A DNA stretch of 64,000 nucleotides from positions 1 through 64,000 of the forward strand of contig NZ_JAVHUY010000026.1 of NCBI RefSeq assembly GCF_031085175.1, written 5' to 3'. Below are positions 36,148 to 53,138 of this stretch, one piece after another. Origin of the DNA: Phytohabitans maris. Lineage in GTDB: Bacteria > Actinomycetota > Actinomycetes > Mycobacteriales > Micromonosporaceae. The notes under the pieces are model-generated. The model was not told where the DNA came from. It worked only from the letters and a program-made list of their open reading frames with translations, and did no database searches. Every line of letters begins with the position of its first letter. Within the stretch, counting starts at the first letter, position 1. The translations under genes were made by a program, and so were the position numbers.

Positions 36148-37389
36148 ATGTTGGATATTCGCGGGCGCTGGAAAGGCGTCCTGTTGCCCCTCGCGGCGAT
36201 ACTCGCGCTGAGCGCGTGCGGCAGCAAGACGGGTGAGAACGAGTCCACCGGCGGCGCGGTGGCGGACACGTCCGGCGACACCGTCAAGGTCGGCCTGCTC
36301 AACTCCCTGTCCGGCACGATGGCGATCAGCGAGGTCACCGTCCGCGACTCCATCAGGCTCGCGGTCGAGGAGATCAACGCCGCCGGCGGCGTGCTCGGCA
36401 AGAAGATCGAGCCGATCAGCGAGGACGGCGCCTCGGACTGGCCGACGTTCGCCGAGAAGGCCGAGAAGCTCATCCGGGAGGACAAGGTCGCCGCGGTCTT
36501 CGGCTGCTGGACCTCGGCCAGCCGCAAGGCGGTCAAGCCGGTCTTCGAGGAGAACAAGGCGCTGCTGTTCTACCCCGTGCAGTACGAGGGGCTGGAGCAG
36601 TCGCCGTACATCTTCTACACCGGCGCCACCACCAACCAGCAGATCGTGCCGGGGCTGGACTACCTCAAGTCGCAGGGCAAGACCTCGGTCTACCTGGTGG
36701 GCAGCGACTACGTCTTCCCGCGTACCGCCAACAAGATCATCAAGGCATATGCGGCGGCGAACGGGATGACCGTCCTCGGCGAGGACTACGCGCCGCTCGG
36801 CTCGACCGAGTTCGGCACGATCGTCAACAAGGTCAAGGCGTCCAAGGCTTCGGCAGTGTTCAATACGTTGAACGGTGACAGCAACGTGGCCTTCTTCAAG
36901 GAGTACAAGTCGGCCGGGCTCACCGCCGCCACGATGCCGGTGGTCTCCGTGTCGATCGCCGAGGAAGAGGTCAAGAGCATCGGCACGCAGTACCTCGACG
37001 GCCAGCTCACCGCCTGGAACTACTACCAGACCACGCCCGGCGCGGCCAACGACAAGTTCGTGAAGGCGTACAAGGCGAAGTACGGGCAGGACAAGCCGAC
37101 CAGCGACCCGATGGAGGCCGCGTACGTCTCGGTCTACCTGTGGAAGGCGATGGTCGAGAAGGCCGGCAAGTTCGACGTCGCGGCCGTCAAGTCCGCCTCC
37201 GACGGGGTCACGTTCGAGGCGCCCGAGGGGCTGGTCACGATCGACGGCGCGACGCAGCACATCTACAAGACCGCGCGGATCGGCAAGGTCGGCCCCGACG
37301 GCCTGATCACCGAGGTGTGGAACTCCGGCCAGCCGGTCAAGCCGGACCCGTACCTCAAGGGCTACCCGTGGGCCACCGGCCTGAGCTGA
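36148..37389 (+). CDS. urtA: urea ABC transporter substrate-binding lipoprotein UrtA
   Basis: A 413-residue lipoprotein (lipobox ALSAC). The mature part matches the UrtA/FmdD group: [51 protein letters not shown] and the strongly conserved [20 protein letters not shown]. It captures urea (or short amides) outside the cell for the UrtBC permease. ATG 36148 follows GGAGG. It is the first gene of urtABCDE. Confidence 0.94.
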
Positions 37390-37438
37390 CGTCGGGTGCC
37401 CGCCTTCGGGCGGGCACCTCCCACCGCGGAGGTCCGCC

Positions 37439-38326
37439 ATGACCGTCATCGTCAGCCAACTCTTCACCGGCGTCAGCATCGGCGCGGTACTGCTGCTCAT
37501 CGCGCTCGGCCTGTCGCTCACCTTCGGCCAGATGGGCGTCATCAACATGGCGCACGGCGAGTTCATCATGGCCGGTGCCTACACCGTGTACGTGCTGCAG
37601 AAGGTGATCACCGGCGCCGGCTGGTCGCTGCTCGTGGCGCTGCCGCTGGCGTTCGCGGTGGCCGGCGCGATGGGCGTGCTGCTGGAGTTCCTGCTCATCC
37701 GCCGCCTCTACGCGCGGCCGCTGGACACCCTCCTGGTCACCTGGGGCGTCTCGCTGATCCTCCAGCAGTTGGCCCGGGACATCTTCGGCGCGCCCAACGT
37801 GCAGACCCGCGCGCCGGACGCCCTGACCGGCAACATCAAGATCACAGACGATCTGGTACTGAGCAACAACCGCCTCTTCATCCTCGCGCTCGCCCTGCTG
37901 GCCGTGGTGGCGCTGACGCTGGTGCTGCGCTTCTCCTCGCTCGGCCGGCGGATCCGCGCCGTGGTGCAGAACCGCGACCTCGCCGCGGTCTCCGGCATCC
38001 CGACCGGGCGGGTCGACCGGCTCACGTTCCTCATCGGCTCGGGGCTGGCCGGGGTGGCCGGCGTCGCGCTCACCCTGCTCGGCCCGATCGGCCCGACGAT
38101 GGGCACCAACGTCATCATCGACGCGTTCCTCGTCGTGGTGGCCGGCGGCATCGGGCACCTCAAGGGCAGCGTGATCGTGGCGTTCGCGCTGGGCACGCTC
38201 CAGTCCCTCGTCGAGTACTCCACGACGGTCAGTGTCGCCAAGGTGGGCGTCTTCGTGGCGATCGTGGCCTTCCTCCAGTGGCGGCCGCAGGGGCTGTTCA
38301 CGTTGCGGACCCGGAGCCTGGCATGA
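37439..38326 (+). CDS. urtB: urea ABC transporter permease UrtB
   Basis: A 295-residue LivH-type permease with about eight helices, including LTFGQMGVINMAHGEFIMAG and LRFSSLGRRIRAVVQNRDLA. It forms the membrane channel together with UrtC. ATG 37439 follows GGAGG. The stop overlaps urtC. Confidence 0.94.
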   Translation: MTVIVSQLFTGVSIGAVLLLIALGLSLTFGQMGVINMAHGEFIMAGAYTVYVLQKVITGAGWSLLVALPLAFAVAGAMGVLLEFLLIRRLYARPLDTLLVTWGVSLILQQLARDIFGAPNVQTRAPDALTGNIKITDDLVLSNNRLFILALALLAVVALTLVLRFSSLGRRIRAVVQNRDLAAVSGIPTGRVDRLTFLIGSGLAGVAGVALTLLGPIGPTMGTNVIIDAFLVVVAGGIGHLKGSVIVAFALGTLQSLVEYSTTVSVAKVGVFVAIVAFLQWRPQGLFTLRTRSLA

Positions 38327-39417
38327 GATCTCTTTCCTGGCGTGCCGGTGCCGGCTTCGCGGTCGGCGCCGTGCTCCTCTTCGGTGTCGCGCCGTTCGCC
38401 CTGTCCGACTTCCGGCTCAGCCTGCTCGCCAAGTACCTGTGCCTGGCGATGGTCGCGGTCGGCATCGGGCTGGCCTGGGGGCGGGGCGGGCTGCTCACGC
38501 TCGGCCAGGGCGTCTTCTTCGGGCTGGGCGGCTACGCGATGGCCATGCACATGAAGCTCGCCGACGCGGGTCCCGGCGAGATGCCCGACTTCATGCAGCT
38601 GTACGGCCAGCTCGACGCGCTGCCCTGGTGGTGGCGGCCGTTCGCCAACCCGGCCTTCGCGCTGCCGGCCACCGTGCTGCTGCCGATGCTCGTCGCGTTC
38701 CTGCTCGGGTCGCTGGTCTTCCGGCGGCGGGTGCGGGGCGCGTACTTCGCGATCCTCAGCCAGGCGCTCGCCGCCGCGATGGCGATCCTCCTCATCGGAC
38801 AGCAGGGCACCACCGGCGGCACCAACGGGCTCACCGACTTCCAGGGCTTCTTCGGGTACGACCTGGACGACCCGGTCAACCAGCGGATGGTGTACTTCAT
38901 CGTCGCCGGTGTGCTGCTCCTGCTGCTGGCCATCGCGCGGCAGCTGATGCGGTCGCGGTACGGCGAGCTGCTCGTGGCGGTGCGCGACAGCGAGGAGCGG
39001 GTCCGCTTCCTCGGGTACAACCCGGCGAACGTCAAGCTCGTCGCGTACGTGACCGCCGCCGGCATGGCCGGGCTCGCCGGCGCGCTGTTCGTACCGGCGG
39101 TCGGCATCATCAACCCGGCGCTGATCGGGATCGTGCCGTCGATCGAGTTCGTGATCGGGGTCGCGGTCGGCGGGCGGGCCTCGCTGCTCGGCCCGGTGCT
39201 CGGCGCGGTCGCGGTGGCGTGGGCGAAGACCACCCTCTCCGAGGAGTTCCCGGCCGCCTGGACGTACCTGCAGGGGTTGTTGTTCGTGCTGGTCGTGGCG
39301 TTCCTGCCGGGCGGCCTGGCGTCCGTCGTGCGCCTGCTCCGGCGGCGGCGTCGACCGCCACCCGACCCGGCTCCGGTCTCACCGGCACCGGTCGTGGCGC
39401 AGGAGGTGACGGCATGA
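38323..39417 (+). CDS. urtC: urea ABC transporter permease UrtC
   Basis: A 364-residue LivM-type permease, with LLTLGQGVFFGLGGYAMAMH typical of UrtC and a Pro-rich C-terminal tail. It starts by ATGA overlap with urtB. Its stop codon TGA is contributed by the first bases of the dispersed repeat at 39414. Confidence 0.94.
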   Translation: MRSLSWRAGAGFAVGAVLLFGVAPFALSDFRLSLLAKYLCLAMVAVGIGLAWGRGGLLTLGQGVFFGLGGYAMAMHMKLADAGPGEMPDFMQLYGQLDALPWWWRPFANPAFALPATVLLPMLVAFLLGSLVFRRRVRGAYFAILSQALAAAMAILLIGQQGTTGGTNGLTDFQGFFGYDLDDPVNQRMVYFIVAGVLLLLLAIARQLMRSRYGELLVAVRDSEERVRFLGYNPANVKLVAYVTAAGMAGLAGALFVPAVGIINPALIGIVPSIEFVIGVAVGGRASLLGPVLGAVAVAWAKTTLSEEFPAAWTYLQGLLFVLVVAFLPGGLASVVRLLRRRRRPPPDPAPVSPAPVVAQEVTA

Positions 39418-39484
39418 GCGAGCGAATCATCGGGTGCGGTGCGTTTGGAGCCTCGTGCCCGCCCGCGGCGAAGCGAGGACGGGC
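39414..39484 (+). repeat. single 71-bp copy of the RBS/start repeat
   Basis: The same element as at 24723-24962, but lacking 9 bp near its 5' end. It begins ATGAGCGAGCG at the urtC stop and ends GCGAGGACGGGC, directly before the urtD ATG. Its own ATG opens a 24-residue frame whose TGA overlaps the urtD start. Confidence 0.9.
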
Positions 39485-40216
39485 ATGAGCGGGACCGGGC
39501 TGGTGGTGCGCGACCTGCGGGTGGTCTTCGACGGCTTCGCGGCCGTGGACGGGGTCGACCTGGAGGTGGCGCCGGGCGACATCCGGTTTCTCATCGGGCC
39601 GAACGGCGCCGGCAAGACCACGCTCGTCGACGCGGTGACCGGGCTGGTCAAGGCCACCGGCTCGGCGCGCTTCGGCGACGAGGAGCTGCTGGGGCGGCCG
39701 GTGCACCGGATCGCGCGGATGGGCGTGGGGCGCACGTTTCAGACCGCGACGGTGTTCGAGGAGCTGACCGTGCTGCAAAACCTCGACATCGCGGCCGGTG
39801 CGGGGCGTGGCGCGCTGACGCTGTTGCGGCGCCGCCGGTCGGTGCCGGCCGCTGTCTCCGCGGCGCTGGAGACGATCGGGCTGGCCGCCCTGCGCGACCT
39901 GCCCGCGGGCTCGCTCGCGCACGGGCAGAAGCAGTGGCTGGAGATCGGCATGCTGCTCGTCCAGGACGTCAAGCTGCTGCTGCTCGACGAGCCGGTCGCC
40001 GGCATGAGCCACGACGAGCGGGACGCCACCGGCGAGCTGCTGCGGGTGGTGAGCGCCGACCGCACGGTGGTGGTGATCGAGCACGACATGGACTTCATGC
40101 GCAACTTCGCCAACACGGTGACGGTGCTGCACGCCGGCAAGGTGCTCAGCCAGGGCACGGTCGCGCAGGTGCAGGCGGATCCGGCGGTACAGCAGGTGTA
40201 TCTGGGGGTTGGCTGA
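39485..40216 (+). CDS. urtD: urea ABC transporter ATPase UrtD
   Basis: A 243-residue LivG-type ATPase. Walker A is GPNGAGKTT (residues 38-46), and the signature is the UrtD variant LAHGQKQWLEIGM in place of LSGGQ. Walker B is LLLLDEPVAGMSHDE and the switch His lies in VIEHDMDFM. The start and ribosome-binding site are part of the repeat at 39414. The stop shares one base with the urtE ATG. Confidence 0.94.
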   Translation: MSGTGLVVRDLRVVFDGFAAVDGVDLEVAPGDIRFLIGPNGAGKTTLVDAVTGLVKATGSARFGDEELLGRPVHRIARMGVGRTFQTATVFEELTVLQNLDIAAGAGRGALTLLRRRRSVPAAVSAALETIGLAALRDLPAGSLAHGQKQWLEIGMLLVQDVKLLLLDEPVAGMSHDERDATGELLRVVSADRTVVVIEHDMDFMRNFANTVTVLHAGKVLSQGTVAQVQADPAVQQVYLGVG

Positions 40217-40908
40217 TGCTGGAACTCGACGGCCTCCACGTCGGCTACGGCCGCAGCCTCGTGCTGCACGGCGTGTCGCTCTCCGTACCCGACGACGGCG
40301 TGGCCGCGGTCATGGGGCACAACGGCGCCGGCAAGAGCACGCTGCTGCGGGCGGCGATCGGGCTCCTCAAGCCGCGCGGCGGGCGGGTGCTCCTCGGCGG
40401 CGAGGACGTGACCCGGCTGGCGCCGCACGAGCGGGTGGCGCGCGGCATGGCGTACGTGCCGCAGGGGCAGCAGTCCTTCCCACACCTCACCACCGCGGAA
40501 AACCTCCAGCTCATCGCCGACTCCCGCCCCGACGGCAAGGCGGCGACGGCCGACGCGCTGGACCTCTTCCCGGCGCTGCGCGGCCTGATGGGGCGGCGGG
40601 CCGGCCTGCTCTCCGGCGGGCAGCGGCAGCAGCTGGCGATCGCGCGGGCGCTGATCACGTCACCGCGGCTGCTGCTGCTCGACGAGCCGACCGAGGGCAT
40701 CCAGCCGTCCGTGGTCGCCGAGATCCAGGAGACCATCCTGTCGCTCACCCGGCGGGGCGGGCTGTCGGTACTGCTGGTGGAGCAACACGTCGGGTTCGCG
40801 CTGCGGGCGGCGGAGCGGTACTACGTACTGGAGTCGGGGCGGGTGACCTCGTCCGGCGCGGGCGGGCAGGAGGCGGAGCGGGACGTGCGCCAGGCCCTCG
40901 CCGTCTAG
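40216..40908 (+). CDS. urtE: urea ABC transporter ATPase UrtE
   Basis: A 230-residue LivF-type ATPase with Walker A GHNGAGKST, the signature LLSGGQRQQLAIARAL, and the UrtE-typical Walker B and D-loop LLLLDEPTEGIQPSVVAEI. It completes urtABCDE and is followed by a strong terminator. Confidence 0.94.
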   Translation: MLELDGLHVGYGRSLVLHGVSLSVPDDGVAAVMGHNGAGKSTLLRAAIGLLKPRGGRVLLGGEDVTRLAPHERVARGMAYVPQGQQSFPHLTTAENLQLIADSRPDGKAATADALDLFPALRGLMGRRAGLLSGGQRQQLAIARALITSPRLLLLDEPTEGIQPSVVAEIQETILSLTRRGGLSVLLVEQHVGFALRAAERYYVLESGRVTSSGAGGQEAERDVRQALAV

Positions 40909-40927
40909 CCCGCTCTCCCCACGGCTG

Positions 40928-40979
40928 TGATCGAAGCTCCCCTCAAGTCGTTCTAGCGACTTGAGGGGAGCTTCGATCA
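40928..40979. terminator. 23-bp perfect terminator hairpin, GATCGAAGCTCCCCT family
   Basis: Arms 40928-40950 and 40957-40979 pair perfectly around a 6-nt loop. It closes the urt operon and the convergent thioesterase gene. It belongs to the same family as 16531 and 57563. Confidence 0.9.
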
Positions 40980-44089: not shown

Positions 44090-44869
44090 TCAGATGGGCT
44101 GTTTTTCCTGGTGACGGCGGTGGTACGTGCGGACCAGGTCTTCCACCCGGGCCCGCATGGCGAGAAAATCGGGGAGTCGTTTAGCCGACAGTTCACGTTC
44201 GGCCGGGAGGTTGACGGGGAGGTCGGCGGCCACCCGGCCCGGGTCGCTGGCGAGTACGACGACGCGTTGGCCCAGGAAGACGGCCTCTTCCACGTCGTGG
44301 GTGACCATCAGGACGGTGGTGCCGGTGTCCTGCCACACCCGCCGGATGAGCAGCTGCATGTCCTCCTTGGTCTGAACGTCGAGCGCCCCGAACGGCTCGT
44401 CCAGCAGCAGCACCGCCGGCTCGCAGGCGAGGGCGCGGGCGATCGCCACCCGCTGCCGCTGGCCGCCGGAGAGCTGCTTGGGCAGCGCGTGGCGGTAGGC
44501 GGTGAGGCCGGTCTCGGCGAGGTACCAGGCGACCCGCCGGTCCCGCTCGGCCCGGGGCAGGGGGAGCAGCTCCAGGCCGAACGCGACGTTGCGCTCGACC
44601 GTCCGCCACGGGTAGACCGCGCCCTCCTGGAAGACCAGCCCGCGGTCGGGCCCGGGACCGGTGACCGGCCGCCCGTCCAGGCGTACCTCGCCGGCGGTGG
44701 GGCGGACCAGGCCGGCGACCAGCGAGAGCAGCGTCGACTTGCCCGAGCCGCTGGCGCCGACCACGCAGACGAACTGCCCGTCCGGGACGGACAGGTCCAC
44801 CCCTTCCAGCGCCTTCACCGGGCCGCCGCGCCGGGTGAACTCCTTGCCGAGGGACGCCAGCTCCAGCAT
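44090..44869 (-). CDS. ABC transporter ATPase, TauB/SsuB type (probable guanidine importer)
   Basis: 259 residues with Walker A GASGSGKST, the signature QLSGGQRQRVAIARALA, Walker B VLLLDEPFGALD and switch VTHDVEEAV. It is the last gene of a four-gene operon behind a guanidine-I riboswitch. TauABC-type systems in that setting are known to be associated with guanidine, hence the inferred substrate. ATG 44869 shares one base with the permease stop and has AGGTGGG upstream. Confidence 0.92.
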   Translation of the reverse strand: MLELASLGKEFTRRGGPVKALEGVDLSVPDGQFVCVVGASGSGKSTLLSLVAGLVRPTAGEVRLDGRPVTGPGPDRGLVFQEGAVYPWRTVERNVAFGLELLPLPRAERDRRVAWYLAETGLTAYRHALPKQLSGGQRQRVAIARALACEPAVLLLDEPFGALDVQTKEDMQLLIRRVWQDTGTTVLMVTHDVEEAVFLGQRVVVLASDPGRVAADLPVNLPAERELSAKRLPDFLAMRARVEDLVRTYHRRHQEKQPI

Positions 44870-45708
44870 CAGACCCACCTCCCCACCCGGTCGCGGGTGA
44901 TCCGCAACAGCAGGTCGATGGTCAGGCCGATCAGGGCGATGACCACGAGTACGGCGAAGATGCGGTCGATCTGGTTGAAGCGCTGGGCCCGCACGATCCG
45001 GTAGCCGAGCCCGGACTCGGAGGCGATCAGCTCGGCGACCACGACGAAGCTCCACGAGGCGGCCGCGTTCACCCGGATCGAGTCGATCATGCCGGGCAGG
45101 GCGTACGGGACGATCACCTTGCGCAGCACCTCGCCCCGGCGGGCGCCGAGCGTGTACGACACGTCGATGAGGCTGAGCGGCACCCGCCGTACCGCGTCGG
45201 CGGTCATCAGGGTGTTGAAGAAGAACGCGGCGAGGAAGAGCAGCGCCACCTTGGACGGCTCGCCCAGCCCCAGCCAGATGATCAGCAGCGGGATGAACGC
45301 GCTCGCCGGCAGGTAGCGCAGCAGTCCCACGAGCGGCTCCAGCAGCGCCTGCCCGGCCGGGAAGCTGCCCATGAGGATGCCGAGCGGCACCGATACGAGC
45401 ACGGCCAGCCCGAAGCCCTGCAGCACCCGCGCGACCGTCGACCAGGCGTCGGTGAGCAGCTGCCCCGAGCGGGCCATCTCGATCCCCGCCTCGACGGCCT
45501 CGAAAGGCCCCGGCAGGTAGTCGGGCCGCCCGTCGACGACCACGCTGAGCACCTGCCAGGCGGCCAGCGGCACGGCCACCGAGAGCGCCATCAGCGTCCA
45601 CCGGACGCCGGGCGGGACGGCTGTGCGGATGCCCCACAGGCCGCGCACCCGTGGCGGGCGGCGGCGCGGGAGCGAGCGCGGCGGTGCCTTCTCAGCCACG
45701 ACGGTCAC
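44869..45708 (-). CDS. ABC transporter permease, TauC/SsuC type (probable guanidine importer)
   Basis: 279 residues with about six helices and the EAA-type loop ASYTLGARRGEVLRK-like segment (VSYTLGARRGEVLRKVIVPY), which contacts the ATPase. The N-terminal 30 residues are basic and cytoplasmic. GTG 45708 overlaps the binding-protein stop by 4 bp. Confidence 0.92.
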   Translation of the reverse strand: MTVVAEKAPPRSLPRRRPPRVRGLWGIRTAVPPGVRWTLMALSVAVPLAAWQVLSVVVDGRPDYLPGPFEAVEAGIEMARSGQLLTDAWSTVARVLQGFGLAVLVSVPLGILMGSFPAGQALLEPLVGLLRYLPASAFIPLLIIWLGLGEPSKVALLFLAAFFFNTLMTADAVRRVPLSLIDVSYTLGARRGEVLRKVIVPYALPGMIDSIRVNAAASWSFVVVAELIASESGLGYRIVRAQRFNQIDRIFAVLVVIALIGLTIDLLLRITRDRVGRWV

Positions 45709-46697
45709 GGTGAGACCGCTTTGACGAACGTGGCGTCGAAGAGCCCGTCGAGCGGCGGCGCCTCGTCCACGAGCTTGGCGTCGACCAGGAACTTCGCGAT
45801 CGACCGGGCCTGGAAGTCGAGGTTGGCCGCTGTCTCGCCGGGGGTGAAGGCGGCCAGGTTCTGCTCGTGCGTGAAGATCGTCGTACCCGCGTCGTAGGTC
45901 TTGTAGTCGGCGTCGCTGACGCCGCCCTTCTTGGCCATGATCGCGATGGCCGCGTCCTTGTTGGCCGCGATCCAGGCCAGCGTGTCGAACCAGGTGTCGA
46001 CCAGCGCCTGCACCTGTTTCGGGTGGTCCTTGACGAAGCCGGCGTCGAAGACCAGGTGGTCGGGGATCGCGCCGGGGAAGTCGGCGGAGGTGGCGACCGC
46101 CTTGCTGCCGGCGAGCCCGAGCGCGGTCGTGGTGAACGGGGCGAAGGCGCCGACCGCGTCGACCTGTCCGGCCACGAACGCCGCCGCGGCCGCGTCGGTC
46201 AGCAGCGGCTTGACCGTGATGTCCCCTTCGGAGAGTCCGGCCTTGCGCAGCGCGAGCAGCAGCAGGTAGTGGTCGACGGTGCCCTGCTCGACCGCCACCG
46301 TCCGGCCCTTGAGGTCGGCGACGGTGTCGATGCCGGATCGGGCGATGATCTGGTCGTTGCCGGTGGAGTTGTCGTTGACCAGCACGATCGTCTGCTGGGC
46401 GCCGCCGCTGACCGAGGAGAGCGTGTCGTTGAGGGTCTGGCTGTTGGCGTCGAGGTTGCCGGTGGAGAGGGCGGTGAGGCTGTCGGTGTAGCTGTCGAAG
46501 TAGGTGAGGTCGACGGTCACCCCGTTCTCGGCGAACAGCCCCTGCTCCTGCGCGACCTGCCAGGGAAACCAGCCGGGCCAGGCGCTGAAGCCGAGCCGCA
46601 CGGTGGTGCCGGACGAGTCGGCGGAGTCGGTGGAGTCGGACGATCCGCAGGCGGTCAACAGGACGAGCGCCGCGGCGGCGGCGAGAACTCTCTTCAT
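45705..46697 (-). CDS. ABC transporter substrate-binding lipoprotein, TauA/NMT1 type
   Basis: 330 residues. The lipobox LLTAC is followed by a Ser/Asp linker and a TauA/NMT1-fold domain starting VRLGFSAWPGWFPWQVAQE. In the riboswitch context guanidine is the likeliest ligand, though nitrate, sulfonates or related cations cannot be excluded from sequence alone. ATG 46697 lies 4 bp inside the hydrolase gene end. Confidence 0.92.
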   Translation of the reverse strand: MKRVLAAAAALVLLTACGSSDSTDSADSSGTTVRLGFSAWPGWFPWQVAQEQGLFAENGVTVDLTYFDSYTDSLTALSTGNLDANSQTLNDTLSSVSGGAQQTIVLVNDNSTGNDQIIARSGIDTVADLKGRTVAVEQGTVDHYLLLLALRKAGLSEGDITVKPLLTDAAAAAFVAGQVDAVGAFAPFTTTALGLAGSKAVATSADFPGAIPDHLVFDAGFVKDHPKQVQALVDTWFDTLAWIAANKDAAIAIMAKKGGVSDADYKTYDAGTTIFTHEQNLAAFTPGETAANLDFQARSIAKFLVDAKLVDEAPPLDGLFDATFVKAVSP

Positions 46698-47809
46698 GGC
46701 GTGCTCCTAAGGGGGAGGTGACCGGCCCGCACCAGGCAGCCGAGCGTGTCGCAGATGACGCGGGTCGCGATGAGGGAGGTGATCTCGGCGTTGTCGTAGG
46801 GCGGGGAGCACTCCACGACCTCGATGCCGGCCAGCGGCCGCTCGGCGACGAGCTGGATGAACTTGAGCACCTCGCGGGGGAGGAAGCCGCCCGGCTCGGG
46901 CCAGCCGGTGCCGGGTACGAACGCGGCGTCCAGGCAGTCGACGTCGAACGAGAGCCACACCGCGTCGGCCCCGTCCCAGGCCACCTCGAGCGCCCTGGCG
47001 GCGGCCGCCTCGATGCCCATCTCGACGCAGTCGGTGACGGTCATGATGGTGGTGCCCCGCTCGCGCCCGACCTTGACGCCGGGGCGGGGCGCCTGCCAGC
47101 CGCCGATGCCGATCTGCACGAGGTTTTTCGGCGGTACGTTGGGGATGTCGGTGGCGTGAAACCAGGGCGTGGTGTGCATCCGCTCGTCGAGGTCGGTCTC
47201 CTGCGTGTCGACGTGCCGGTCGAAGTGGATGATGCCGAGGTTGCCGTCGAGGTGCTCGGCCACCCCGCGCACCGTGGGGTAGCCGATCGAGTGGTCGCCG
47301 CCGAGCACGACCGGAAACGCGCCCGAGGCGTACACGTGGCCGACCGCCTTGGAGATCTGGTCGAACGTCTTCTCGATGTTCGCCGGGATGGTGAAGACGT
47401 CGCCGAGGTCGGCGATGGTGATCGACTCGCGCAGGTCGACGCCGAGCTCGAAGGAGTACGGGCCGTAGAGGGCGGAGATCTTGCGGATGCCCTGGGGGCC
47501 GAAGCGGGTGCCCGAACGGTACGTGGTGCCGCCGTCGAAGGGGGCGCCGAGCACCGCCACGTCGTACTCCCCGCAGCGGCGCACGTCCTCCAGGTACGGC
47601 GCCTTGAGGAACGTGTTGATGCCGGCGAAGTGCGGCAGCTCGCCGCGGCTGAACGTGGGGATGCGACGGTCCACGATGGAGTCCGCGCCGGGCAGGCCGA
47701 GCTCGAGGCCGCGGGCGACCTCCTCCTCCCACCGGGTGGTGGGCAGCTCTGCCTCGCGTTCCACGGCGTAGCGCGCTTCGGGGCCGTAGTGGTCGTGCGG
47801 ATGGGCCAC
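46694..47809 (-). CDS. gdmH: ureohydrolase, probable Ni-dependent guanidine hydrolase (GdmH type)
   Basis: 371 residues of the arginase/agmatinase superfamily. Metal-binding positions are His173 (GGDHS), Asp197, His199 and Asp201 (FDRHVD, with Arg where agmatinases have Ala) and Asp289/Asp291 (SFDVDCLD). The ~60-residue N-terminal extension and MHTTPWFHAT after the metal site match my memory of cyanobacterial GdmH, which turns guanidine into urea and ammonia. The guanidine-I riboswitch upstream supports this over agmatinase. GTG 47809 is chosen because GGAGG lies 5 nt upstream; the frame's open extension runs through the riboswitch and cannot be coding. Confidence 0.85.
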   Translation of the reverse strand: MAHPHDHYGPEARYAVEREAELPTTRWEEEVARGLELGLPGADSIVDRRIPTFSRGELPHFAGINTFLKAPYLEDVRRCGEYDVAVLGAPFDGGTTYRSGTRFGPQGIRKISALYGPYSFELGVDLRESITIADLGDVFTIPANIEKTFDQISKAVGHVYASGAFPVVLGGDHSIGYPTVRGVAEHLDGNLGIIHFDRHVDTQETDLDERMHTTPWFHATDIPNVPPKNLVQIGIGGWQAPRPGVKVGRERGTTIMTVTDCVEMGIEAAAARALEVAWDGADAVWLSFDVDCLDAAFVPGTGWPEPGGFLPREVLKFIQLVAERPLAGIEVVECSPPYDNAEITSLIATRVICDTLGCLVRAGHLPLRSTP

Positions 47810-47914
47810 GGGCACCTCCGGGAGAGGGGCCTGGCTGGGAGCCCGGCCGCCTCCGCGTCCGTCGTGCGCCAACCGATGGCGGCGCGGACGCGGCTGCAAC
47901 CAGCACAGCCAGGA

Positions 47915-48036
47915 CTTGGCTGTCTCCCGGGCTTTTGTCCCGCCGTGGAACGCGCGCGGCGCGGCCATCGCGTCGCGGCGCCTGCGTCTCTCGGACCAGC
48001 CCCGCCCGCGGCAACGGGCGGCGGAACCCTAGGCGC
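47915..48036 (-). ncRNA. guanidine-I (ykkC) riboswitch
   Basis: The minus strand shows the ykkC hallmarks in order: CTAGGGTTCCG (48032-48022), a CCGCCCG/CGGGCGG hairpin, CTGGTCCGAGAG (47999-47988), a variable GC-rich stem and then ACGGCGGGACAAAAGC followed by CCGGGAGA (47946-47923). Ligand binding is known to turn on guanidine-handling genes. Downstream, CGCGTCCG and CGGACGCG (about 47891-47853) can form a strong hairpin, and CCTC/GGAGG pairing near 47815-47826 could hide the ribosome-binding site; which of these acts as the switch is not clear. Confidence 0.93.
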
Positions 48037-48078
48037 GCCTCACCGGTGGTGAGTCAGAACGCAGTAGAACCGCCGCCC

Positions 48079-48116
48079 GTTGCTTGGGCTTTGCCCGTTT
48101 GTTGCGAGCGTGTGTC
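48079..48116 (-). promoter_or_regulatory. GlnR-like array of four half-sites before the riboswitch
   Basis: Read on the minus strand: GACAC-N6-GCAAC-N6-GCAAA-N6-GCAAC. The general GlnR rule is GnnAC-N6-GnnAC; three of the four half-sites fit and the 11-bp phasing is exact. A possible -10 (TACTGC, 48066-48061) follows. Nitrogen control by GlnR is inferred. Confidence 0.45.
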
Positions 48117-48151
48117 TTTACAGATCGTCGGCCATCAGTGCGTGCCGGGGC

Positions 48152-48589
48152 TCAGGAGGCGACGGCCGGCTCGGGCACACCGTCGCGGGCGCGCCGGCGG
48201 GCGAGTGCGGCGTCCAGCGACCAGCGGCCCGGTCCCAGGGCCGCGATCAGCAGGAACGACCAGCAGAACAGCGCCGCCGTCTCGCCGCCGTTGTTGAGCG
48301 GGAGCAGCCCGTCGGGCTGGTGGACGACGAAGTAGGCGTACGCCATCGAGCCGGAGCAGACGACCGCCGCGACCCGGGTGGTGAGCCCGGCCAGCACGAG
48401 CAGGCCGCCGGCGAACTGGATCACCGCGGCGTACCACCCGGGCCAGGTGCCGATCGCGATCGCTTCGCCGGAGCCACGGTTGCCGCCGAAGGCGCCGAAG
48501 AGGGACGCCGCGCCGTGGAAGGCGAACAGCAGCCCGAGCACGAGCCGGAAGAGGTTGGTGACGAGGTCGGGGATGCGTGCAGGGTTCAT
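48152..48589 (-). CDS. DoxX-family membrane protein
   Basis: 145 residues with four helices: LFRLVLGLLFAFHGAASLFG, then WYAAVIQFAGGLLVLAGL, AYAYFVVHQ and LFCWSFLLIAAL. DoxX proteins are small redox-linked membrane proteins of mostly unknown role. ATG 48589 follows AGGAG. It lies 81 bp downstream of ureD and 110 bp upstream of the riboswitch operon; it may simply share the urease transcript. Confidence 0.85.
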   Translation of the reverse strand: MNPARIPDLVTNLFRLVLGLLFAFHGAASLFGAFGGNRGSGEAIAIGTWPGWYAAVIQFAGGLLVLAGLTTRVAAVVCSGSMAYAYFVVHQPDGLLPLNNGGETAALFCWSFLLIAALGPGRWSLDAALARRRARDGVPEPAVAS

Positions 48590-48670
48590 ACGGAGAGCTC
48601 CTGTAGAGACTGGCCCCACGGCGAGCGAATCGTATCGCGTTCAATCAATGGTTGTCTATGCGAGCCCGAT

Positions 48671-49441
48671 TCATGTGAATGCGCGGTCGAGTGCCGCGCG
48701 CACCTCGCGCAAATCACCACCCACGGCCGCGGCGAGCGCCGCCGGCCCGCCGGCGAGCGGCATCCGGGCCGCGCCGGGCCCGAGGACCGCCGCCTCCGGC
48801 GGCTTTTCCGTCCACAGAGGATCCACCACCAGCAGCGTCCCGGTCGCCCGGCCGCCGCCCAGGACCGCGGGTCCGGCCCATCCGCAAGCGCGCGGTCCGA
48901 CCGCGAGATCCTGTCGCGCGAGGGTACGGCCGCCGAGGCGCACGGTGCTGTGCAGTGACGCGTCTCCGGGGTCCTCCCCGTGGCGCCCGCACACGACCTC
49001 CTCCCGCCAGGTGAGGGAGGCGTCGCTTTCGAGGTCTACAAGGGACCGGGAGACGTGGTCACAGCCCCTGGCGGCGATGAGCGGTTCGGGCAGCCAGCGC
49101 AGCGAGCCGCCGGCCGCCACGGTCGCGTGGATGTCGAGTGTGGACTGTGTGTCGGCCGGGCTCCGCGGGCCGGCTCGCTCCGGCCACCGCGGTCCGGGCA
49201 GGGCGAGCGAGGCCGCGACGGTACGCACGCACAGGCGCGCGCCCGGCCCGACGGTCACCTCGATCCGCAGCCGGTCGCCGCCGAGCGGGCCGGCGGCCCC
49301 GCCGACCAGGTGCACCTCGACCTCACCCGCCGCGTGGCGGGGACCCGTACGGCGTACCAGAAGGGGTGGCTCCGACCGGAGGGTGACCAGCCGCGTGCGC
49401 CCGGCCTCCGCGACCGCGGTGATCCGGGCGGTGGCCTTCAT
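48671..49441 (-). CDS. ureD: urease accessory protein UreD
   Basis: 256 residues. UreD joins UreF and UreG on apo-urease to deliver nickel. Recognisable segments are [26 protein letters not shown]-like text early on ([19 protein letters not shown]), a central [17 protein letters not shown] and [18 protein letters not shown] 49441 begins right at the ureG stop. Confidence 0.92.
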
Positions 49442-50091
49442 CCCTTGACGAGGCCGCGCACCCAGTCGGCGACCGGTGTCGCGGCGGGGTCCTCTACCAG
49501 GGAGAGGAAGACGGTCGGCAGGTCGCCGCGGCGGGCGGCCGCGTCCCGGGCCATGACGGAGAGGTCGGCGCCGACCAGCGGGGCGAGGTCGGTCTTGTTG
49601 ACCACGAGCAGGTCGGCGGTGGTGACGCCGGGGCCGCCCTTGCGCGGCACCTTGTCGCCGCCGGCCACGTCGACCACGAAGATCTGATGGTCGACCAGGC
49701 CCTTGCTGAACGTGGCGGTGAGGTTGTCGCCGCCGCTCTCCACGAGGACGAGGTCGAGTGGGCCGAGGTCGTGCTCGAGGTCTTCACAGGCGTCGAGGTT
49801 GGCGGAGATGTCGTCGCGGATCGCGGTGTGCGGGCAGCAGCCGGTCTCGACCGCGCGGATCCGGTCGGCCGGCAGTACGCCGTTGCGGAGCAGGAAGTCG
49901 GCGTCCTCGGTGGTGTAGATGTCGTTGGTGACGACCGCGAGCCGCAGGTCGGCCGCGAGGGTACGGCAGAGCGCGGCGACCAGCGCGGTCTTGCCCGAGC
50001 CGACCGGGCCGCCGATGCCGATCCGCAGCGCGCGGGCGCCCGCGGTCAACGGGGCGTGCGGGTCGGGGTGAGTGTGTGCTTCAGGATGCAA
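49438..50091 (-). CDS. ureG: urease accessory GTPase UreG
   Basis: UreG is the SIMIBI GTPase that hands Ni to urease. The 217 residues carry the P-loop [12 protein letters not shown], the metal-binding CPH of [24 protein letters not shown] and the NKTD motif. The His-rich N-terminus ([13 protein letters not shown]) may hold nickel. The start is TTG 50091: GGGAGGTG lies 7 nt upstream, inside the ureF end, and no ATG or GTG fits. Confidence 0.95.
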
Positions 50092-50713
50092 AGAGACGCA
50101 CCTCCCAGCTTGCGTGTGCTTCGGCTCCGATGTCCAGCAGCGGCGCGGAACAGGCGGGCAGCTCGTCCACTGTGGCCACTCGCGCCGCTCTCCTCGCCAC
50201 GGCGTCGCAGTCTCTCGCGAGGCGGGCGACGAGCGCGTGCGTGGCGTACGGGTCGAGCCCCAGCAGCCGTACGGCGGCGCTGGCCGGCCCGGTGACCGTG
50301 CCGTACGCGGCGGTGAGCGCGGCCTCCTCGGGCGCGAGCCCGGCGGCCGCCGCCACCACGCCGAGCGCGACCGGGTGGTGCAGCTCGCGCTCCACTGTGG
50401 AAAGCGTCCACAGTGTACGGCCGGCGCGCAGCAGGGCCCGCCCCTGCGCCCTGGACGCCTTGCGCAGCGCGGGAGAGGGCGTGCGGGCGTCCATCTCGGA
50501 GTCGAGTGTGCTCGTGTCGCCGCCGCGGCACGCCGCCGCCGCGAAGGCCGCGGCCACCAGGCCCGCCGTCGCCAGGCGGCCGTCGAGGAAGGCGGCCAGG
50601 GTCTCCAGGTCGCGCACCCGCCCGGCGGTGACCGCCGCCTCCAGGCCGCCGGAGTGGGCGTGGCCGCCGGCCGGGAAGCGCCCGTCGGCGAGCAGGAGCA
50701 GGGTGGTGGACAT
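50081..50713 (-). CDS. ureF: urease accessory protein UreF
   Basis: An all-helical 210-residue protein that couples UreG GTP hydrolysis to urease activation. It starts with [21 protein letters not shown], the UreF signature. ATG 50713 lies 5 bp after the ureC stop without a clear ribosome-binding site, so translation is probably coupled. It overlaps ureG by 11 bp. Confidence 0.93.
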
Positions 50714-50718
50714 CGTCG

Positions 50719-52425
50719 TCAGAAGAGGAAGTAGCGCTGGGCCATCGGCAGCTCGGCGACCGGCGCCGGCTCGACCACCTCGCCGTCGATCCGCACCGTG
50801 AACGTGTCCGGCTCGACCTCGATGCGCGGGGTGGCGTCGTTGAGCGGGAGGTCGGCCTTGCCGCGCCCGCGTACGCCGGCGACCGGCTGGAGCCTGCGGG
50901 CCACGGCGAGCCGCGCGGCCAGCCCGTCCTCGATCGCGGCCGGCGCCACGAAGGCGAGGCTGGTGGCGGCCGGCACCGCGCCGTACGCGCCGAACATCGG
51001 GCGGGGGAGCACCGGCTGCGGGGTGGGGATCGAGGCGTTCGCGTCGCCCATCTGCGCCCACGCGATCATGCCACCCTTGATCACCAGGTGTGGCCGCACG
51101 CCGAAGAACGCCGGGTCCCACAGCACCAGGTCGGCCAGCTTGCCCGCCTCGACGCTCCCCACGTCGCCCTCGATGCCGTGCGCGACGGCGGGGCAGATCG
51201 TGTACTTCGCGACGTACCGGCGGGCCCGGTGGTTGTCGGCGGCCCCGTCGCCGGGCAGCGCGCCCCGGCGCTCCTTCATCACGTGCGCGGTCTGCCAGGT
51301 GCGGAGCACGACCTCGCCGACCCGCCCCATCGCCTGCGCGTCCGAGCCGATCATCGAGATCGCGCCCAGGTCGTGCAGCACGTCCTCGGCGGCCATCGTG
51401 CTCGGCCGGATGCGGCTCTCCGCGAACGCCAGGTCTTCCGGCACCGCCGGGTTGAGGTGGTGGCAGACCATCAGCATGTCGAGGTGCTCGTCGAGCGTGT
51501 TGCGCGTGTACGGCCGGGTGGGGTTGGTCGACGACGGCAGCACGTTGGGGTGGGACGCGACCGTGATGATGTCCGGCGCGTGGCCGCCGCCCGCCCCCTC
51601 GGTGTGGTACGCGTGGATGGAGCGCCCGCCGATCGCCCGCAGGGTGTCCTCGACGAAGCCCGCCTCGTTCAGGGTGTCGGTGTGGATGTTGACCTGTACC
51701 CCGGCGGCGTCGGCGACGGTGAGGCAGGCGTCGATCGCGGCGGGCGTGGTGCCCCAGTCTTCGTGCAGCTTGAAGCCGCCCGCGCCGCCGCGCAGCTGCT
51801 CCCACATCGACTCCGCGCTGACCGTGTTGCCCTTGCCGAGCAGCAGCACGTTGACCGGCCAGGGGTCGATCGCCTCGAACATGCGGGCCAGGTGCCACGC
51901 GTTCGGCGTGACGGTGGTGGCCTTGGTCCCCTCGGCCGGGCCGGTGCCGCCGCCGATCACCGTGGTGATGCCGCTGGCGACCGCCTCTTCGAGGATCTGC
52001 GGGCAGATGAAGTGGACGTGCGAGTCGATCGCGCCGGCCGTGAGGATCTTGCCGTTGCCGGCGATCACCTCGGTGCCCGGGCCGATCACCAGGTCGGGGT
52101 GGACACCGTCCATCGTGTCCGGGTTGCCGGCCTTGCCGAGCGCGACGATCCGCCCGTCGCGGATCCCGACGTCGGCCTTCACCACGCCCCAGTGGTCGAG
52201 CACGACCGCGCCGGTGATCACCGTGTCCGGGGTGCCCTCGGCGCGGGTGGCCCGGGACTGCCCCATCGACTCGCGGATCACCTTGCCGCCGCCGAAGACC
52301 GCCTCGTCGCCGCCGGCGCAGCGGTCCTCCTCGACCTCGATCAGCAGGTTGGTGTCGGCGAGCCGGATCCGGTCGCCGGTGGTGGGGCCGTAGAGGGCCG
52401 CGTAGCGCCGCCGCTCGATCCTCAT
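50719..52425 (-). CDS. ureC: urease alpha subunit UreC
   Basis: The catalytic Ni-Ni subunit hydrolyses urea to ammonia and carbamate. The 568 residues show the metal site HVHF (with [11 protein letters not shown]), the Lys to be carbamylated in [25 protein letters not shown], the flap [13 protein letters not shown] and the fifth ligand Asp in GSDAQAMGR. All catalytic residues appear intact. The ATG overlaps the ureB stop. Confidence 0.97.
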
Positions 52426-52718
52426 CCGTCCCGCCTCACCAGGCCGGGCACGACCCGCCGGCCGGCCAGGGGTACCAGGTCGACGTCGCGCGGCACGCCG
52501 GGCTCGAACCGGACGGACGTGCCGGCCGGGACCGCCAGCCGGTGCCCCTGGGCGGCCGCCCGGTCGAAGTCGAGGGCCGGGTTGGCGTCCGCGAAGTGGT
52601 AGTGCGAGCCCACCTGCACCGGCCGGTCGCCGGTGTTGGTCACGGCCAGCGTCAGCACCGGCCGCCCGACGTTGATCTCGACCTCCCCGTCGCCGGGGAT
52701 GACCTCACCGGGGATCAC
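52422..52718 (-). CDS. ureB: urease beta subunit UreB
   Basis: 98 residues: [19 protein letters not shown], then [19 protein letters not shown] and the [20 protein letters not shown] end. It packs against UreC. GTG 52718 is chosen because AAGGAGG precedes it and the family begins here; the open upstream part is not coding. Confidence 0.95.
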
Positions 52719-52785
52719 GGGTGCCTCCTTACCGGCCGCCCGCCGCGGCGCACGCGAAACCGGCCCTGCCCGGTCGCGGGGTGCG

Positions 52786-53088
52786 TCACGGGATCGGCTC
52801 GTGGACGGTGACGAGCTTGGTGCCATCCGGGAACGTCGCCTCGACCTGCACCTCAGCCAGCATCTCCGGCACGCCGTCGAGCACGTCGTCCCGGGTGAGC
52901 ACCTGCCGGCCCGCCTCCATCAGCTCGCCGACGGTCCGGCCGTCCCGGGCCGCCTCCAGGAGGAACGCGGTGATCACCGCGGTCGCCTCCGGGTGGTTGA
53001 GCCGCAGGCCGCGCTCGCGGCGCCGCCAGGCAACGTCGGCGGCCACATGGATCAGCAGCCGGTCCTGCTCGTGCCGGGTCAGGTACAA
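52786..53088 (-). CDS. ureA: urease gamma subunit UreA
   Basis: 100 residues matching UreA from [19 protein letters not shown] to VTVHEPIP. The ribosome-binding site decides the start: a perfect GGAGGTGA lies 4 nt before TTG 53088, and UreA proteins begin at this residue. It is the first gene of ureABCFGD. A GAAAC-N6-GAAAC motif lies 35 bp upstream. Confidence 0.95.
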
Positions 53089-53122
53089 GGCGTCACCTCC
53101 AGCGGGATGCTGACACCTCAAC

Positions 53123-53138
53123 GTTTCCGGCACGTTTC
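53123..53138 (-). promoter_or_regulatory. GlnR-like site upstream of the urease operon
   Basis: On the minus strand GAAAC-N6-GAAAC, with both halves fitting GnnAC and the required 6-bp gap. It ends 34 bp before the ureA start, a place suited to repression. Urease genes are known GlnR targets in some actinomycetes; binding here is inferred. Confidence 0.5.

Follow-up and report, generated by a model that had tools for sequence, protein, structure and literature searches.

The stretch of DNA analysed here (the window) comprises the first 64,000 nucleotides of contig NZ_JAVHUY010000026.1 of the actinomycete Phytohabitans maris (RefSeq assembly GCF_031085175.1). It contains what is very probably (probability about 0.93) a single operon for the use of guanidine as a nitrogen source, in which a guanidine-I riboswitch would control the genes of a nickel-type guanidinase (GdmH) and of an ATP-binding cassette (ABC) importer, with urease genes adjoining. 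The aptamer, the membership of the hydrolase in the guanidinase clade, the family of the importer and the structural and accessory genes of urease are identified by sequence; a single transcript and a nitrogen-scavenging role are what we infer for the locus.

In the proposed route, the riboswitch would sense guanidine inside the cell and switch the gdmH-importer operon on. The importer, consisting of a binding lipoprotein, a permease and an ATPase, would bring guanidine in at the expense of ATP, and the guanidinase would cleave it to urea and ammonium. Urease, encoded just upstream, would cleave the resulting urea, so that each guanidine could yield three ammonia. A first-pass annotation of this DNA had proposed this full route from imported guanidine via urea to ammonia, and as a prediction it is strongly supported by the evidence described below: the match of the aptamer to the covariance model, the key residues of the hydrolase, its placement in the tree and its 84.8% identity to a guanidinase already characterised. 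Descriptions of experimental work on the pathway exist for Nitrospira and Synechocystis, as far as the available text of these reports goes (PMC11410670, PMC12186494).

The predicted guanidinase

The hydrolase (371 residues) starts with GTG at position 47809, preceded by GGAGG, and matches the Pfam Arginase family (PF00491) with 268 bits. Its nearest solved structure is the guanidinase of Nitrospira inopinata (9fek, 730 bits), followed by Synechocystis GdmH (7esr/7oi1, 572 bits); agmatinases and other ureohydrolases in the PDB reach at most 185 bits. It is 84.8% identical to the N. inopinata enzyme (over 361 positions) and 68.0% to Synechocystis GdmH. The genome encodes two further clear members of the arginase family, 38.8% and 36.1% identical to the window hydrolase.

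All six metal-ligand positions, located with the motifs that we take to define them, are kept, and the pattern HDHDDD is found in each of the 107 aligned rows, including the window protein, 9fek and 7esr. The specificity positions are likewise all present in the window hydrolase (T96, H212, W303 and E333); both paralogues lack the specificity Trp. In the N. inopinata guanidinase, Thr105, His222 and Trp313 are reported to be required, and Glu344 is also named in the available text (PMC11410670). In a tree built from 32 of the 107 aligned rows, in which the two paralogues are the sole rows outside the GdmH family, the window hydrolase falls with 9fek in a clade of 18 rows from actinomycetes, Chloroflexota and Nitrospira that is supported at 99/99 and excludes the paralogues.

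Judged by its sequence, the protein is a guanidinase, with nickel dependence and guanidine hydrolysis as predicted properties; the GdmH-type ureohydrolase of the first-pass annotation is thereby borne out, as is its expected grouping in a tree. The alternative assignment as an agmatinase is ruled out by the residues, the tree and the identities.

The riboswitch and its leader

The minus-strand leader of gdmH had been said to carry the guanidine-I (ykkC) blocks at 48036-47915. The Rfam covariance model RF00442 matches there over its whole length (1-107) with 60.7 bits (E 2e-10 in a 501-base search), albeit 7 bases farther upstream at both ends, so that the element stands and its position becomes 48043-47922. 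When the whole genome (9.87 Mb) is searched, it is the sole RF00442 match at E<=1 (E 9.3e-10). In an alignment of the window with 23 relatives (24 rows out of 26 pattern matches), 11 of the 27 predicted pairs show changes on both sides that preserve pairing, and the element is therefore a real structured RNA. Since the core blocks were part of the pattern used to select these rows, their invariance here does not count as evidence. A chance match of the riboswitch blocks is nevertheless ruled out, as the covariance model matches over its full length and relatives show compensatory changes. The leader thus carries a guanidine-type aptamer, predicted to bind guanidine and to switch expression.

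The region between the aptamer and gdmH is a candidate expression platform. A CAGCC directly 3' of the aptamer can pair with a GGCTG, which can alternatively pair with a further CAGCC downstream. Of 39 aptamers, not each of which is confirmed to precede gdmH, 28 can form the first of these stems within 30 bases, as against 4.5 by plain shuffling, and only 11 can form the second, alternative one, as against 2.0, kinship being ignored in both counts. In addition, UCUCCCGG, which overlaps the Shine-Dalgarno sequence (GGAGG, 47819-47815), is complementary to CCGGGAGA at the 3' end of the aptamer. This pairing beside the Shine-Dalgarno sequence spans 8 pairs in the window; 14 of the 26 loci compared have at least 6, and the mean is 5.5, compared with 4.3 after shuffling. 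It is no more than suggestive of a translational switch and is only weakly shared among loci. Folding of the whole leader showed no unusual stability (z -1.37). The sole promoter-like site on the minus strand of 47700-48700 (48658-48629) precedes the DoxX gene, and none was found immediately ahead of the aptamer. In the available parts of two reports, guanidine-I switches are described as allowing transcription only when guanidine is present (PMC11410670) and as acting at the level of transcription (PMC12186494); the window switch would likewise act in the ON direction.

The importer

Behind gdmH, the three genes of a complete TauABC-type importer were found, as the first-pass annotation had indicated, coupled by overlapping junctions: ATGA between gdmH and the gene of the binding protein, GTGA between the latter and the permease gene, and TGATG between the permease and ATPase genes. 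Both permease and ATPase most resemble Sao, taurine, nitrate and sulfonate types, all under the NCBIfam cut-offs. From its place in the operon, the set is predicted to carry guanidine.

Neighbouring genes

The urease genes ureA, B, C, F, G and D (53133-48671) lie 0.6 kb upstream on the same strand, with one DoxX gene in between (ureE was outside the search), which confirms the urease neighbour of the earlier annotation. Two Dactylosporangium loci (L029 and L030) gave no DoxX match; there, ureD starts some 0.7 kb ahead of the aptamer. A match to the Rfam family 5_ureB_sRNA (51986-52271, plus strand, 50.6 bits) lies on the strand opposite to ureC; it was discounted, as it is probably conserved urease coding sequence read antisense and not a small RNA. 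The urea transporter, also annotated earlier, is confirmed for UrtA, UrtB and UrtD. The open reading frames (ORFs) read as UrtC and UrtE had no NCBIfam match at 1e-40 and are assigned by position only. All features are collected in Table 1.

Table 1. Features of the guanidine utilisation locus and its neighbours (positions in the window)
Feature	Position	Strand	Basis
Urea ABC importer urtABCDE	36148-40964	+	A, B, D: TIGR03407, TIGR03409, TIGR03411 over cut-off; C, E position only
ABC importer ATPase, TauB/SsuB type	44090-44869	-	PF00005 114 bits; best NCBIfam match taurine ATPase, under cut-off
ABC importer permease	44869-45708	-	PF00528 98 bits; GTGA overlap with binding-protein gene
Substrate-binding lipoprotein, SsuA/TauA type	45705-46697	-	TIGR01728 226 bits (cut-off 163.5); LTAC lipobox; ATGA overlap with gdmH
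gdmH, predicted guanidine hydrolase (guanidinase), 371 residues, GTG start	46694-47809	-	9fek 730 bits; key residues; tree
Candidate expression platform	47810-47921	-	Sequence and pairing tests (weak to moderate)
Guanidine-I (ykkC) riboswitch aptamer	47922-48043	-	RF00442 60.7 bits, E 2e-10; covarying pairs
DoxX-family membrane protein, between ureD and aptamer	48152-48619	-	PF07681 46.8 bits
ureD, urease accessory protein	48671-49441	-	PF01774 98.9 bits
ureG, nickel GTPase of urease maturation	49438-50091	-	TIGR00101 271 bits (cut-off 204)
ureF, urease accessory protein, start approximate	50081-50720	-	PF01730 96.4 bits, C-terminal part of ORF 50081-51898
ureC, urease alpha subunit	50719-52425	-	NF009685 1137 bits (cut-off 907)
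ureB, urease beta subunit	52422-52826	-	NF009682 146 bits (cut-off 129)
ureA, urease gamma subunit	52786-53133	-	NF009712 162.5 bits (cut-off 123)

Occurrence in related genomes

The 80 named hydrolase loci that were compared are the best 80 of at least 561 relatives, and comprise 62 non-Nitrospira and 18 Nitrospira loci. Neighbour counts are lower bounds, because the fetched flanks (up to 10 kb) were often shorter. Among the non-Nitrospira loci, the three importer genes are present in the gdmH flank in 38 of 62 and urease genes in 17, and hydrolase, importer and urease occur together in five. These five are two Dactylosporangium loci, Rhizocola (ureD only, after which the contig ends), an Acidimicrobiales metagenome-assembled genome (MAG) and a Dehalococcoidia MAG. 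None of the 18 fetched Nitrospira loci has urease genes in its flank, or the three together. A plasmid of Rubrobacter carries a 68% identical hydrolase with urease genes about 3 kb away. The order of genes varies, with urease upstream, downstream, divergent or on the opposite strand behind, or with the importer first, which suggests repeated assembly of gdmH-urease clusters.

The window locus is therefore one of many, and the urease arrangement is found repeatedly in actinomycetes and also in one Chloroflexota MAG. The view that the notable point is the combination of hydrolase, importer and urease is weakened by the five relatives that have all three. A joining unique to one actinomycete locus is ruled out by these and by the 17 flanks with urease, and operons of riboswitch, gdmH and ABC importer are already published for Synechocystis (PMC8390497, PMC12186494, in the text available). 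The parts and the operon type are known, and the window holds a further guanidine utilisation operon of that type. In the accessible portions of the literature on guanidinases with urease, riboswitches, Actinobacteria and UreG, the actinomycete arrangement is undescribed, and an account of UreG acting on a guanidinase is likewise missing; earlier mention of either is possible.

Fifty genomes carrying the hydrolase (carriers) were searched, i.e. the window genome and the source genomes of 49 of the 80 named loci, with the 18 Nitrospira and 13 MAG loci left out. RF00442 matches at E<=0.01 in 41 of them and over the gathering score in 35. Forty of the 41 matches are at the gdmH operon, just before gdmH or, in G441, before the importer genes; that of G416 is elsewhere. 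Six loci have no RF00442 match at gdmH at this threshold (L040, L042, L059, L074, L078 and L084; two Lentzea, two Pseudonocardia, Mangrovihabitans and an actinomycete MAG); they come from G416 (L059) and from five of the nine genomes in which RF00442 has no match. No Rfam family was found in these six at the gathering score, at which a weak aptamer like that of the window would be missed. In three loci from genomes of the same order (L128, L129 and L132; about 63% identical), a guanidine-I motif lies on the opposite strand beside gdmH and seemingly leads a divergent gene, not gdmH.

Nickel supply

Synechocystis GdmH is encoded together with two nickel-delivery proteins that are needed for activity, according to the available text of three reports (PMC12186494, PMC8390497, PMC11271267). 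No HypA/HypB-like (ghaAB) genes of this kind are found in the window operon, and in the window genome, which is 97% complete, neither HypA (best match 15.7 bits, cut-off 28.9) nor HypB was found over the cut-off. Maturation of the guanidinase therefore probably needs no dedicated chaperone or else involves the urease accessory proteins. The absence of HypA/HypB-type chaperones, on which the first-pass annotation was silent, is a more interesting feature of the locus than the joining of its genes.

Among the 50 carriers, HypA was found over the cut-off in 24 and HypB in 9 (41 being without HypB over the cut-off), and every match was on another contig than gdmH or more than 4 Mb away; most of these genomes are drafts, where another contig is no proof of distance. 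In 49 carriers a UreG-like protein scores 53-80 bits against the HypB model (62.5 for the window UreG), and the remaining one, G432, has HypB. In 12 of the 50, gdmH and UreG are no more than 10 kb apart. Home-made profiles, untried on known ghaAB (HypA, 8 of 10 fetched HypA loci; HypB, 2 loci), found no HypA-like ORF in 98 gdmH neighbourhoods, and with the HypB profile only ureG-holding ORFs matched. An alphaproteobacterial plasmid locus also has the ABC-gdmH arrangement without annotated HypA/HypB.

A class-wide draw of 394 genomes contained 23 carriers, 22 of which have UreG, as against 123 of the 371 other genomes (Fisher p 1.5e-9, uncorrected for kinship). The sole carrier without UreG (G203, locus L133) has a 2.2 Mb genome and a 59% identical relative of GdmH; since Ser replaces the specificity Trp, it may not be a guanidinase and is possibly a related enzyme with another substrate. 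In the 22 carriers besides the window, HypB exceeded the cut-off in 12 (including 4 of the 8 near-clade carriers, 91-93% identical) and HypA in 15, always on another contig or at least 0.4 Mb from gdmH. Hence many carriers have hydrogenase-type chaperones somewhere, not beside gdmH.

It is conceivable that UreG, with UreF and UreD, also loads nickel into the guanidinase, one machine then serving two successive enzymes of the pathway. We present this as a candidate and not as a finding, and consider it rather unlikely. It would fit the lack of HypA and HypB over the cut-off in the window genome, the excess of UreG-like over HypB matches among the 50 carriers with UreG close to gdmH in 12, the remoteness of every HypA/HypB match in these genomes, and the 98 neighbourhoods without a HypA-like ORF (by a home-made profile with no positive control). 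Nickel loading of the Nitrospira guanidinase is called unclear in the available text (PMC11410670), whose authors obtained the N. inopinata enzyme in active, though under-loaded, form from E. coli without co-expressed chaperones, which speaks against a need for UreG. For the related metformin hydrolase, the accessible parts of two reports point both ways. One study needed co-expression of HypA/HypB (PMC11399263); in the other, co-expressed chaperones had no effect, yet the chaperone genes were necessary in the cell (PMC11271267). Metabolism alone would explain the clustering with urease, because urea is the product, and UreG is expected anyway in carriers if that urea is to be used. Further points against UreG are the HypA of 24 of the 50 carriers, the HypB and HypA frequencies in the class-wide draw, and the fetched flanks of the Nitrospira loci, 18 of 18 without urease; other CobW-family GTPases could also be the loaders. 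If true, loading by UreG would account for the carriers without HypA/HypB, the near-universal UreG and the recurrent gdmH-urease clusters.

The guanidinase clade extends to actinomycetes, including named strains; many of them, like the window genome, are without HypB over the cut-off, and nearly all have UreG. The window locus extends the likely users of guanidine nitrogen to actinomycetes, and its best use is as a test bed for the nickel supply of chaperone-less guanidinases.

Alternative explanations

Some observations weigh against the interpretation as a guanidine utilisation operon. The aptamer score is 2.3 bits below the Rfam gathering score of 63, so that a default Rfam scan of the window omits it; this score is the curators' detection limit and no structural feature, and the low value probably results from the length of the variable stems and from some non-standard pairing in the final one. 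The switch is also not universal, as 9 of the 50 carrier genomes show no RF00442 match (with filters that lose weak matches). The paralogues are on very long branches and the tree is without a characterised agmatinase, which makes its root uninformative. The binding protein matches TIGR03427, which we take to be the family tied to 'urea' (now guanidine) carboxylase, with only 151 of the 334 bits of the cut-off, and for this reason the substrate of the importer is taken from the operon context. Finally, the co-occurrence of UreG with the hydrolase is confounded by descent.

The hydrolase could act mainly on a substituted guanidine (methylguanidine, dimethylguanidine or agmatine), as Aminobacter DmgH does, a nickel ureohydrolase with urease downstream in the available description (PMC11399263). 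The best NCBIfam matches of the window hydrolase are indeed agmatinase models, under the cut-off, but the close identity to a characterised guanidinase, the full T/H/W/E signature, the metformin hydrolase subunits at 135 and 119 bits (730 for 9fek) and the guanidine-type aptamer make this very improbable. We give as little credence to a role mainly in detoxification of guanidine, which is toxic and whose riboswitches often govern exporters (PMC12186494, available text), since an ATP-driven importer would aggravate toxicity, and urease and a urea importer adjoin the operon. Chance adjacency of gdmH and urease is more improbable still, even though the fetched flank holds no urease gene in 45 of the 62 non-Nitrospira loci, several of which lie on short contigs. 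With an assumed frequency of 0.3-1% per genome, UreG within 10 kb in 12 of 50 carriers would have a probability below 1e-13 (kinship ignored), and the differing gene orders suggest repeated assembly. Guanidine utilisation thus remains the preferred reading of the locus.

Comparison with known systems

In the available accounts of these systems, one of the closest is the operon of sll1077 in Synechocystis sp. PCC 6803, which contains a guanidine-I riboswitch, gdmH, hypA/hypB-like genes and the genes of an SsuA-family binding protein, a permease and an ATPase (PMC8390497, PMC12186494). The window operon shares the riboswitch, the hydrolase (68.0% identical) and the ABC importer, but has no HypA/HypB-type genes. 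In addition, urease adjoins the window operon, whereas the urease of Synechocystis is said to be encoded at sites without guanidine-riboswitch control (PMC11410670).

The N. inopinata guanidinase is closer by sequence (84.8% identity, same clade), and also has a guanidine-I leader and no nickel chaperone found, as far as its description goes (PMC11410670). There, an APC-type permease precedes the guanidinase in place of the ABC importer of the window, and urease, which in the window stands beside gdmH, is in the flank at none of the 18 fetched Nitrospira loci. The Aminobacter DmgH cluster resembles the window locus in grouping a nickel ureohydrolase (predicted here) with urease genes, but DmgH is heteromeric, has its own hypA/hypB and acts on another substrate (PMC11399263). 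Guanidine carboxylase operons, as described in the available text, combine a riboswitch and an importer with carboxylase, CgdAB and allophanate hydrolase (PMC12186494). Guanidine-I control and an ABC importer are common to both; the carboxylase operons rely on ATP-dependent carboxylation, whereas the window operon is predicted to use direct hydrolysis.

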